Assembly (NCBI RefSeq): GCF_011320075.1
Contig: NZ_JAANPA010000006.1
Coordinates: forward strand, 1 to 64,000
DNA from: Sphingosinicella sp. YJ22
GTDB lineage: Bacteria; Pseudomonadota; Alphaproteobacteria; Sphingomonadales; Sphingomonadaceae
Reading direction: 5' to 3'
DNA: 64,000 bases
How positions within the stretch are numbered: the stretch's first letter is position 1; every line of letters begins with the position of its first letter. A model generated the notes under the pieces. The model was given only the letters and a program-made list of their open reading frames with translations, made no database searches and was not told the origin of the DNA. This document shows, in pieces, positions 8,630 through 13,130 of this stretch. A program made the translations under genes and the position numbers.

Positions 8630-8681
8630 GCAAACTCTCCTCGCAGAGAGCACGCGCCGCGTTGGGACGGCGTGGCCCGCC
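8630..8681 (-). ncRNA. Candidate serC-type leader RNA
   Basis: On the reverse strand, directly before the serC ATG, there are two hairpins. One is CACGCCG with a loop pairing to CGGCGCGTG (8651-8674). The other is CTCTC-TGCGAG-GAGAG (8635-8650), which places the GGAG ribosome-binding site in its 3' arm. The position, the two-hairpin layout and the GAGAGTTTGC-ATG junction match my memory of the serC RNA motif described in alphaproteobacterial serC-serA leaders. Upstream, TTGACT followed 16 bases later by TACTCC may be the promoter. The Rfam match was not run. Confidence 0.6.
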
Positions 8682-8770
8682 GACGGGAGTAAGGCCGCGT
8701 TGATCCAAGTCAAGCGGGGGCGGCGCGTGACGGCTTGACGCCTGTGGACGAGTTGGCGCGTTGTGCGGCG

Positions 8771-10349: not shown

Positions 10350-11027
10350 TTAGTGGTCGCGGCCGGCGGCCGGGGCTGCCTCGCCGCCGGTGCGGCCTTC
10401 CTGGACCGGGGCGACCTGCGCCTCGTTGAGCACCGGCTGGTCGGCCGCGGCGCCGTTGACCGCAGGGTCGGAGCTGTTGCCGGCCGGCGCGGCCTCGCCG
10501 GCGGCCGGGGCCGGCGGCAGCGCCAGGCTGGAGCCCTGCGCATTCATGTAGACCATGAGGTCGGCGCGGTCCTGCGGGTCGGACAGGCCGGCGAAGGTCA
10601 TCTTGGTGCCGGGGGCGAAGGCGCGCGGGCTCGCCAGCCAGGCACTCATCGTCTCCCAGTCCCAGGTGCCGCCATGACCGCGAAGGGCCTCGGAATAGTT
10701 GAAGCCAGCGACGTGAGCCACGGCCTGGCCCATCGAGCCATAGAGATTCGGGCCGACGCCGTTGGGGCCGCCCTGGTTGATCGTGTGGCAGGCGGCGCAC
10801 TTGCGGAACACGGCCTCGCCGCGGGCGGCGTCGGCGGTCTGCAGGAAGTGGGCGATCGGCTGCTCGGCCTCGCCGCCTTCGCCCTCTTCCTGGACTCCGG
10901 CGATCGGGTAGCCCATCGGATCGGGACGCTCGGACTTGAACATCTCGCCGGCCACCAGGGTGCCGCCGAGCAGCACGATGCCGCCTCCCAGCACCCAACC
11001 AGCAATCGTGTTGAACCGATCGTTCAT
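10350..11027 (-). CDS. Membrane-anchored cytochrome c (CycM-like)
   Basis: 225 residues. An N-terminal membrane anchor (FNTIAGWVLGGGIVLLGGTLVAG) precedes a class I cytochrome c domain with heme motif CAACH in GEAVFRKCAACHTINQGG and a likely Met ligand in GTKMTFAGLSDPQDRADLM. A C-terminal tail of ~50 residues rich in Ala, Pro and Gly follows. This is the cytochrome c552/CycM type that carries electrons between bc1 complex and oxidases in the periplasm while tethered to the inner membrane. Start ATG at 11027. It ends at the bidirectional terminator. The low-complexity tail is typical of sphingomonad members. Confidence 0.88.
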   Translation of the reverse strand: MNDRFNTIAGWVLGGGIVLLGGTLVAGEMFKSERPDPMGYPIAGVQEEGEGGEAEQPIAHFLQTADAARGEAVFRKCAACHTINQGGPNGVGPNLYGSMGQAVAHVAGFNYSEALRGHGGTWDWETMSAWLASPRAFAPGTKMTFAGLSDPQDRADLMVYMNAQGSSLALPPAPAAGEAAPAGNSSDPAVNGAAADQPVLNEAQVAPVQEGRTGGEAAPAAGRDH

Positions 11028-11505
11028 CGCGGCGAAGACCCCTGTCAGGATGCGCGGCGCCAGGAGGGCTGCCGCGGCAAGTTCTCGAATTGGCGCCCCC
11101 TTTATGCGGGGGGCGCGCGCGCCGCAAGCACCAGACGCCCATCGCCGGCGCCTCGGCGGGGGACCTTCCGGCTTTCGCCGCGGATCCTTGCGCGAAAGAA
11201 AAGCAGAGGCCCAAAGCAGGGTCGGCCGATCCACGCAATCGCCTGGAGAAAGCGGCGTCGATTCTACCCCCGTTATCCTCGTTATCCACAGGCAGATTCG
11301 GCTTTGACGACTCGGTTTCCCATGACAGGTTCCAGTTGTGGCCGGGTCGATCGCCCCTCGGGACGAGTGACCAGGCTGCGGCCGGAAACGGCTTCGGATC
11401 GGACCGCAAGCGAAGATTCGAAACGTCACGGCGAGGGCGGCTGACGAAGCCGCCGCCATGCGGACGCAACGGGCTTGCCCCTTAGCTTTTGCAAGGATCG
11501 GCAAG
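11028..11505. other. Gene-free leader region upstream of hairpin array
   Basis: I find no convincing gene here. It holds the upstream region of cytochrome c (reverse strand), a run of G/C (about 11096-11125) and a hairpin GGCGGCT-gacga-AGCCGCC near 11435-11455. A further stem CTTGC ... GCAAG lies at about 11474-11495, directly before the first TTCG hairpin. If the array is transcribed on the plus strand its promoter should lie here; TTGACG at about 11304 is a weak -35 candidate without a good -10. Confidence 0.5.
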
Positions 11506-12276
11506 CTTCGTCGAGCAGCCCGGCGGAACCAGAAGCTTCGGCTTCACGGGACCGCCAAAGGAAAACCGGAAGAGCTTCGGCTCCGACGGGGATCCAAAAC
11601 CGGAGAAACGGATCGGCTTCGGCCGGCACCGCGCTTCGGAGGCGAGCCGCCAGGGCTTCGGCTTTGACGGGGAGCCAACCGGGAAGGGTGCCAGCTTCGG
11701 CTGACATTCTTGTCGGCCGGAAAAGACCGATCGGCTTCGGCCGACACGGAGTTTCCGGACAGGTGAACCGCCAAGGCCTCGGCCGGACGCGGGGAACCGA
11801 ACGGTGAACGGCAAGGGCTTCGGCCTAAGCCCGGATCCGGGAGAGCCGCCAGAGCTTCGGCTCGAACGGCTCTCCTGGAGACCTGGACCGGCCTCGGCCG
11901 GGAAAGGCTCTCCAAAGGAGAAATGAGGCGGCTTTGGCCAAGCCATTTTTCCTCAGGAGAACTGAATGGACTTCGGTCCGGACAGGGATCCACGGGAAAT
12001 CGGACAGGCTTCGGCCTGGAAGAGGACCCACCGGAGAACTGCTGAGGCTTCGGCCAAGGCAGGGATCCACCGGAGAACTGCGGCGGCTTCGGCCAAGGCA
12101 GGGACCCAACGGAGAACTGCGGCGGCTTCGGCCAATGCAGGGACCCAAGGTGAACCGCCACGGAGCTTCGGCTCCAGGCGGGGATCCGGGTGAAGTGTCG
12201 CGAAGCTTCGGCTTCGAGGCGCCGATCCTAGGTGAACCGCGAAGGGCTTCGGCCTTTCGTGGAGAGCCGAACGGGA
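11501..12276 (+). repeat. Tandem array of ~20 degenerate UUCG-hairpin units (putative structured RNA)
   Basis: The core CTTCGG recurs at 11536, 11575, 11617, 11656, 11695, 11735, 11818, 11855, 11971, 12009, 12048, 12087, 12126, 12166, 12206 and 12247. Variant cores lie at 11776 (CCTCGG), 11892 (CCTCGG) and 11932 (CTTTGG), and a first imperfect one at 11506. The pitch is 37-42, most often 39. Each unit folds as: outer stem, a three-by-three internal loop, inner stem of 3-5 bp, tetraloop. Stem bases differ between units but pairing is kept: GAGAGCCG/CGGCTCTC at 11841-11873, AAATG/CATTT at 11921-11948, CTGC/GCAG at 12078-12100, CCGCC/GGCGG at 12156-12181. Linkers carry GGATCC-like and GGAGAAC or GGTGAAC boxes, themselves able to form TCC-N3-GGA mini-hairpins. 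The hyperstable C(UUCG)G loop occurs on the plus strand, favouring plus-strand transcription. Non-triplet spacings break every reading frame, so it is not a repeat protein. No known RNA family is recognised. Confidence 0.85.
12009..12139 (+). repeat. Nearly identical 39-bp units within the hairpin array
   Basis: Four consecutive units starting at 12009, 12048, 12087 and 12126 are the least diverged: each reads GGCTTCGGCC, about 8 bases, GGGA(T/C)CCA(C/A)C, then GGAGAACTGC. They are exactly 39 bp apart. This points to recent unit duplication inside an otherwise old array and gives the best consensus of the unit. Confidence 0.85.
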
Positions 12277-12411
12277 TGGAAGCGTCAGGTCCTGCCTCTC
12301 GCCTCTCTTCCCGGACAATGGGTGGAACGCCTGGTCGTTCGTGCCATTGTCGAACATCGCCGAGACGGACGCCAAGCCCTCACCGGCGCGGCTTTCCCCG
12401 GCTCGACGCAG

Positions 12412-12439
12412 TGAGGGCTGGCGGAAACGTCAGCCCTCA
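12412..12439 (+). terminator. Strong hairpin downstream of the array, possible terminator
   Basis: TGAGGGCTG and CAGCCCTCA form a perfect 9-bp stem around GCGGAAACGT. An overlapping alternative pairs the same left arm region with GCCCTCAC at 12376-12383. No good T-tract follows (TGTGCATTTGGGG), so it may be a processing or attenuation structure rather than a classical terminator. It lies between the array and the bactofilin gene. Confidence 0.45.
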
Positions 12440-12641
12440 TGTGCATTTGGGGGAGCGAGCATTCGGCGCGGCGCATTTGAGGCGCGGCGCAGGCCGCCCT
12501 TCGCGACGCGCTGTCCCGCGCCTACTCTCCTGATAAATAACGTGTTGCGCCTCCGCCTGTGGCTGACCGCAGGCGCGTCCCGCCGCCTTGATCTCACCCC
12601 TCAAAAGCGCGACTGTCCGGGTGGGCAAAAGGGGCGAATCG

Positions 12642-13130
12642 ATGTTTTCGAGCGGCAAGAGCAAGGGGCCGGCAGCGGCCAAGCAGGGCGGCAGGAGCGG
12701 GGCCGGGGGGCTCTCCTTCATCAGCCCCGACGTGGTGGTGAACGGAGACCTCACGACCGAATCGCAGATCCATATCGACGGGCGCATCGAGGGCAACGTG
12801 ACTTGCGCCACCCTCATCCAGGGCAAGGGCGGCACGATCGCCGGCAACATCGTCGCCGAATCGGCGTGCATCGCCGGTCTCGTCGACGGCACCGTCAATG
12901 CGCGGCTGGTGACTCTCGAGCCGAGCGCTCGGGTCACCGGCGACGTCACCTACGAGACGTTGAGCATCGCCGCGGGCGCGGCGATCGACGGCCGCCTCGC
13001 CCGGCGCGAGGGCGCCGGCGCCGGGGCCGTCATGGCGACGCTGAAAGCGCTGCCCGACAAGGCCAGGCCCCGCGGCGACCAGCCGAGTCTGCTGCCGCCG
13101 GGCGAGCCGCTGATCCAGGCGGCGGAGTAG
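12642..13130 (+). CDS. Bactofilin (polymer-forming cytoskeletal protein)
   Basis: 162 residues. A short disordered basic N-terminus (MFSSGKSKGPAAAKQGGRS) leads into the beta-helical DUF583 domain from about residue 27 (FISPDVVVNGDLTTESQIHI, then DGRIEGNVTCATLIQGKGG and SARVTGDVTYETLSIAAGA). A disordered tail of ~35 residues follows. Bactofilins self-assemble without nucleotide into filaments that scaffold cell-wall enzymes and cell shape. The ATG at 12642 is preferred over one at 12588 because the family begins close to the beta-helix. The long array lies upstream. Confidence 0.9.
   Translation: MFSSGKSKGPAAAKQGGRSGAGGLSFISPDVVVNGDLTTESQIHIDGRIEGNVTCATLIQGKGGTIAGNIVAESACIAGLVDGTVNARLVTLEPSARVTGDVTYETLSIAAGAAIDGRLARREGAGAGAVMATLKALPDKARPRGDQPSLLPPGEPLIQAAE

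Follow-up and report, generated by a model that had tools for sequence, protein, structure and literature searches.

A covarying hairpin array in Sphingosinicella as part of a putative replication-timed structured RNA gene of Sphingomonadaceae

What kind of genetic element carries a long run of short hairpins between a cytochrome c gene and a bactofilin gene in Sphingosinicella sp. YJ22? The stretch of DNA analyzed here, hereafter the window, spans 64,000 nucleotides. The original prediction for it placed about 20 UUCG-capped hairpins at a pitch of about 39 nt between 11501 and 12276 and regarded them as a candidate undescribed structured RNA. The reading that we favor, with a probability of roughly 0.6, is that the array forms the fast-evolving body of a trans-acting, replication-timed structured non-coding RNA (ncRNA) gene of Sphingomonadaceae, which ends at a GNRA-loop terminator. 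As judged from sequence, the promoter-like block and the terminator are conserved and the body between them drifts in both sequence and length. The earlier reading had missed the promoter-like block and the terminator, as well as how widely the element is distributed and its link to DnaA and GcrA/CcrM. If the favored reading is true, the locus connects a long structured bacterial RNA with the circuit that governs replication and the cell cycle in a large bacterial family. The body of this RNA, changing fast with pairing kept, would be a natural experiment on structure-only selection, and its compact promoter would make the DnaA and GcrA inputs separable experimentally.

Table 1. Coordinates of the element and of its flanking genes in the window.
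Feature	Position	Strand	Basis or remark
Cytochrome c gene, upstream of the element	10353-11027	-	
Three tandem DnaA-box-like 9-mers, CTACCCCCG TTATCCTCG TTATCCACA	11264-11290	+	sequence; first is a poor match
Distal GANTC site (GATTC), CcrM type	11295-11299	no strand	missing from several copies
Putative -35, TTTGAC	11303-11308	+	conserved TTGG/TTTG position; 17 nt ahead of putative -10
Proximal GANTC site, CGACTCG (reverse complement of YGAKTCG)	11308-11314	no strand	34/34 aligned rows, 26/27 order-level loci
Putative -10, CAGGTT	11326-11331	+	from sequence; predicted transcription start ~11338
5' rod, GGGCGGCTGACGAAGC able to pair with GCTTCGTCGAGCAGCCC	11435-11521	+	by eye
Array of 19 three-stem hairpins, 16 UUCG-capped	11519-12269	+	core scan, pairing and covariation tests
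Segment CGCCAAGCCCTCACCGGCGCGG, shared with second-copy RNAs of relatives	12370-12391	+	by eye
Terminator-like hairpin, GAAA loop, weak T tail	12411-12440	+	like the hairpin at the 3' end of most loci
Bactofilin gene, downstream of the element	12642-13130	+	followed by an OsmC-like gene (Pfam)

The array consists of covarying three-stem units

Nineteen CYTYGG cores (16 CTTCGG, 2 CCTCGG and 1 CTTTGG) form a single chain from 11536 to 12247 with steps of 37–42 nt; 100 dinucleotide-shuffled versions of the whole window yielded a chain of 3 cores at best. The predicted array is thus real, with a slightly lower count than first given. The whole feature reaches past the coordinates first proposed: the array occupies the central part of a larger unit at ~11264-12440, about 1.1 kb in the window. 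Each unit has stems of 3, 3 and 4 pairs separated by 3x3 loops (19 ungapped rows). The GGATCC-like and GG(A/T)GAAC boxes, formerly described as linkers, instead pair with each other: in many units they form an outermost GGA/UCC stem that encloses a 3x3 loop of GAA and GGA, as in GGA-GAA-CUG ... CAG-GGA-UCC, so that the bead comprises three short stems split by 3x3 loops. In 77% of cells this outer stem is paired. A Shine-Dalgarno-mimic role of the boxes was dropped after inspection by eye, because relatives lack it and because the letters pair. A CRISPR, already dismissed in the original prediction, can likewise be rejected, since the units diverge (mean column identity of 64%) and adjoin each other, as opposed to near-identical repeats with unrelated spacers.

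Within a unit the arms match each other better than arms taken from different units do, both in the best outer helix (4.37 vs 2.85 bp) and in the inner pairs (3.26 vs 2.43), with 0 of 20,000 permutations reaching either value. Of the cells in the ungapped 19-row alignment, 83.7% are paired, compared with 66.3% in shuffles, and pairing falls to 27.9–50.5% after sliding by 1–3 columns (47–51% for one column). Doubly changed cells number 39 against 12.2 in shuffles (0/500), and 9 of the 10 pairs contain double changes against 5.8 in shuffles (1/500). The covariation between arms that had been predicted is therefore significant: the units covary and, by the evidence of the aligned letters, selection appears to act on pairing.

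Folding energies are less clear-cut. The RNA fold of 11510-12280 gave z = -5.3 on the plus strand and -4.3 on the minus strand (20 shuffles each), and these near-equal values mean that folding energy alone barely separates the strands. Over 31 selected loci (L058 was omitted for a wrong hairpin) the excess was modest, with mean z of -2.5 on the plus and -1.4 on the minus strand; plus-strand z was at or above 0 at three loci (L121, L130 and L143), and the body in the window was about equal on both strands. This counts against the ncRNA reading, as does a consensus fold computed from 7 whole relatives, whose covariation term was slightly unfavorable (+1.21) and in which many pairs were invariant; at least one double change was found in 49 of its 189 pairs. 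An equivalent of the 5' rod is present in that consensus fold, mostly as invariant pairs.

A promoter-like block hints at possible replication timing

Upstream of the array lies a block of TTATCC-type 9-mers, the last of which is TTATCCACA, followed by GANTC sites. Across 34 aligned rows, chosen for DnaA-like boxes, box 2 always has ATCC and box 3 always has TCCACA. At the proximal site the letters are CGACTC(G/A) or CGAATCG, always compatible with the reverse complement of YGAKTCG, in all 34 aligned copies, some of which were fetched by patterns requiring or favoring GANTC (one fetch pattern left its middle base and outer flank open). The 27 order-level loci came from a model built on those rows, and the sole miss among them, L158, reads CGACTCA by eye. 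According to PMC7987155, YGAKTCG is an extended motif put forward for promoters activated by GcrA in Caulobacter; that paper also states that the extension did not hold in Brevundimonas, which counts against the GcrA link. GcrA itself is encoded in 20 of 21 genomes, G000 included. The proximal site follows the last box by 17–18 or by 28 nt, two spacing classes separated by one turn of the helix, a pattern suggestive of proteins that share one face of the DNA.

The block thus has GANTC in the context expected of a GcrA/CcrM-regulated promoter and, at motif level, boxes near a promoter as expected of DnaA regulation. Control by DnaA and GcrA is what we infer from these motifs, although the putative -35 and -10 are weak. 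Because of the DnaA-box-like cluster and the CcrM/GcrA-type site, synthesis of the RNA would probably fall at a fixed stage of the replication cycle. A transcript from ~11338 would end at the conserved GNRA-loop terminator, and its stacked rod-like hairpins could act as a multivalent platform, recognized by a protein through structure rather than sequence. That the array binds many copies of one protein is a guess. More tentative still, and in our view rather doubtful, is a full replication clock, in which DnaA and fork passage (via methylation state and GcrA) would elicit a pulse of long hairpin-rod RNA; its many beads would bind and titrate a protein of the cell cycle or of the nucleoid, and this structure-only sponge would have a sequence nearly free to drift.

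In E. coli, datA and DARS are DNA-level DnaA sites that titrate or recharge DnaA. It is unlikely, if conceivable, that the present locus is such a site and its RNA incidental. Clustered DnaA-like boxes do recur before replication genes in other Alphaproteobacteria: the five class-sample matches to our promoter model outside the order lie immediately upstream of gapR (3 loci, from a single genus) or of dnaB (2 loci), with one gapR and both dnaB supported by Pfam and the remaining two gapR identified by eye. However, a DnaA site leaves the covarying hairpins downstream, and the hairpin kept at the other end, unexplained, and the conserved GANTC and spacing suggest a promoter.

Conserved 3' end and variable gene neighborhood

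A GC-rich GNRA-loop hairpin followed by some T's was found at the 3' end of 50 of 59 loci, compared with 2 of 59 on the opposite strand (60 loci were assembled, L148 failed the promoter pattern, and L130 and L137 are identical in sequence). On visual inspection, L108, L150 and L157 among the 50 hairpins are not clearly of the family type, and some of the nine misses (L105, L106, L082/L110, L089/L111 and L159) do have the family hairpin. Compensated pairs occur among the 36 of 46 loci passing a strict filter (16 distinct hairpins). The T tail is weak, which counts against the ncRNA reading. The distance from the boxes to the terminator ranges from ~0.34 kb (L149) to 1.4 kb (L106). Ahead of the terminator, the letters of CGCCAAGCCCTCACCGGCGCGG are identical in L103 and L123 and near-identical in L104 and L070 (by eye).

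In seven related genomes (G001, G004, G008, G013, G016, G018 and G024, sequence by eye), an element rich in hairpins and headed by this promoter block precedes bactofilin, and G025 has the same arrangement with its bactofilin identified by eye; the cytochrome c side was read, by eye, in G008 only. A hairpin-rich element thus sits at the same locus in relatives, in line with the original prediction. The block is kept with a different body in G005, G006 and G010.

This neighborhood raises the possibility of a leader or attenuator of the bactofilin gene, which is on the same strand, with a terminator-like hairpin in between. We consider it improbable, because neighboring frames differ between loci (compared as longest open frames, with no family search) and because G007 and G009 carry the element without a bactofilin match. 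For example, an OsmC-like frame lies downstream in L082 and L089 (by eye), and in L122 and L126 the longest frames run on the opposite strand. The inferred product is a free RNA, not a leader.

Distribution and copy number

Among 396 sampled Sphingomonadales genomes, 91 had a match to the promoter model, distributed over 15 of 84 genera and nearly always one per genome; 27 loci outside the genus were read, and the weaker remainder may include other box clusters. The 305 genomes without a match under strict filters count against the ncRNA reading. In a class-wide sample the model matched 6 of 385 genomes, the window genome being one. A scan of GTDB contigs with the exact pattern retrieved 16 stretches, all labeled as sphingomonads or as an Alphaproteobacteria MAG, including Sphingomonas changbaiensis, S. 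horti, S. arenae, S. parva and Sphingosinicella terrae. Within the genus, the block pattern missed 9 of 26 genomes, of which G000, G006, G010, G016 and G018 nevertheless carry the block; it was unseen in G003, G011, G019 and G022.

A model built from the 19 units of the window alone gave 38 matches at E <= 0.01 in the 26 genus genomes. Its 21 matches in the 25 other genomes include 15 in the same RNA gene (in G001, G002, G008, G014, G015, G018, G024 and G025, the G002 copy, L163, being at a contig end), so that the unit search proposed in the original prediction does recover this gene in relatives. Seven matches fall outside the RNA gene, and of the three viewed by eye L164 is a coding region, L165 an ordinary terminator and L166 an intergenic site of unclear nature; the other four are L167 and matches in G022, G013 and G005:C1.

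These counts bear on a selfish or dispersed palindromic repeat of the REP/BIME kind, expanded in tandem. The near-identical neighboring units at 12048, 12087 and 12126 do point to local duplication. Yet 16 of the 17 unit-model matches in the window's own genome sit in one array, where many dispersed copies would be expected, the weak 17th resembles an ordinary terminator by eye, and the host gene has conserved ends. A repeat of this kind is accordingly very improbable.

The RNA gene is, from the sequences compared, usually single-copy and sometimes present twice. Second copies were found in G001, G008, G018 and G025, at L070 646-771 (minus strand), L103 925-1050, L104 2864-2989 (minus strand) and L102 2045-2170; those of G025 and G018 are ~3–4 kb from the first copy and oriented towards it. 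By eye, the RNA body in L086, L106 and L163 (G002) contains longer repeated blocks of ~220 bp with UUCG hairpins.

The element is distant from hemE and parB

DnaA-type boxes and GANTC sites could also mark the chromosomal replication origin, and a similar box pair (13.6 bits) does occur at the hemE locus of G005, though the other hemE locus retrieved, in G020, has only weaker ones. That the element is the origin is extremely improbable, because in 7 genomes with a shared contig the element lies ~304–701 kb from hemE and parB, which are within ~10 kb of each other; moreover, some genomes have two copies. The sampled GC skew of G025 was noisy. The DnaA-like boxes beside hemE that resemble those of the RNA promoter are at L098 2681-2711 and L099 2685-2833. 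In L169–L173, TTATCC-type box clusters sit directly upstream of gapR and dnaB in other Alphaproteobacteria.

Comparison with known RNAs

Rfam 15 at the gathering threshold gave no match at the locus and none in 20 homologous loci, and a permissive Rfam scan of 9 loci returned sub-threshold matches only. Together with the significant covariation, this sustains the proposal of a candidate undescribed structured RNA. Among the titles and abstract openings listed, with most subscription journals outside coverage, nothing was recognized as this element; the one mention of Sphingomonas in an excerpt of PMC8632094 concerns an odc1 leader.

Comparable systems differ in important respects. CcnA of Caulobacter, as described in part of PMC8959179, is likewise an alphaproteobacterial ncRNA tied to the cell-cycle circuit, but it sits at the origin and is presumably CtrA-activated, whereas our element is hundreds of kb from hemE and parB and, unlike CcnA as described there, carries DnaA-like boxes and a GcrA-type site. 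Identity with CcnA was rejected on location. EcpR1 of Sinorhizobium is likewise trans-acting and cell-cycle-linked and represses gcrA and dnaA; the excerpt of PMC4414408 describes it without a hairpin array, unlike the element. The large ornate RNAs OLE, GOLLD and ROOL are, in an excerpt of PMC12286853, likewise long structured bacterial ncRNAs, whereas the element lacks an Rfam match and has as its body a drifting rod array between conserved ends.

CsrB and RsmZ are protein sponges with many repeated hairpins in one RNA. The element shares the many repeated hairpins, but its loops are mostly UUCG. CsrA/RsmA was found in 0 of 21 genomes by a search that was positive in 3 of 14 control genomes, and a sponge of the CsrB/RsmZ type was rejected accordingly.

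A protein-coding repeat with a 13-residue period on the minus strand is barely credible despite a 227-codon open stretch there, because, as the original prediction had argued, the 37–42-nt pitch breaks the frame, and also because none of the six frames crosses the array without a stop and it is pairing that selection maintains. At 11544-12161 of the window, the minus strand has a 205-codon frame with a 13-residue repeat, probably a by-product of the 39-nt pitch. Elsewhere in the window, an Rfam serC leader (RF00517, 44.1 bits) matches at 8630-8682 on the minus strand.
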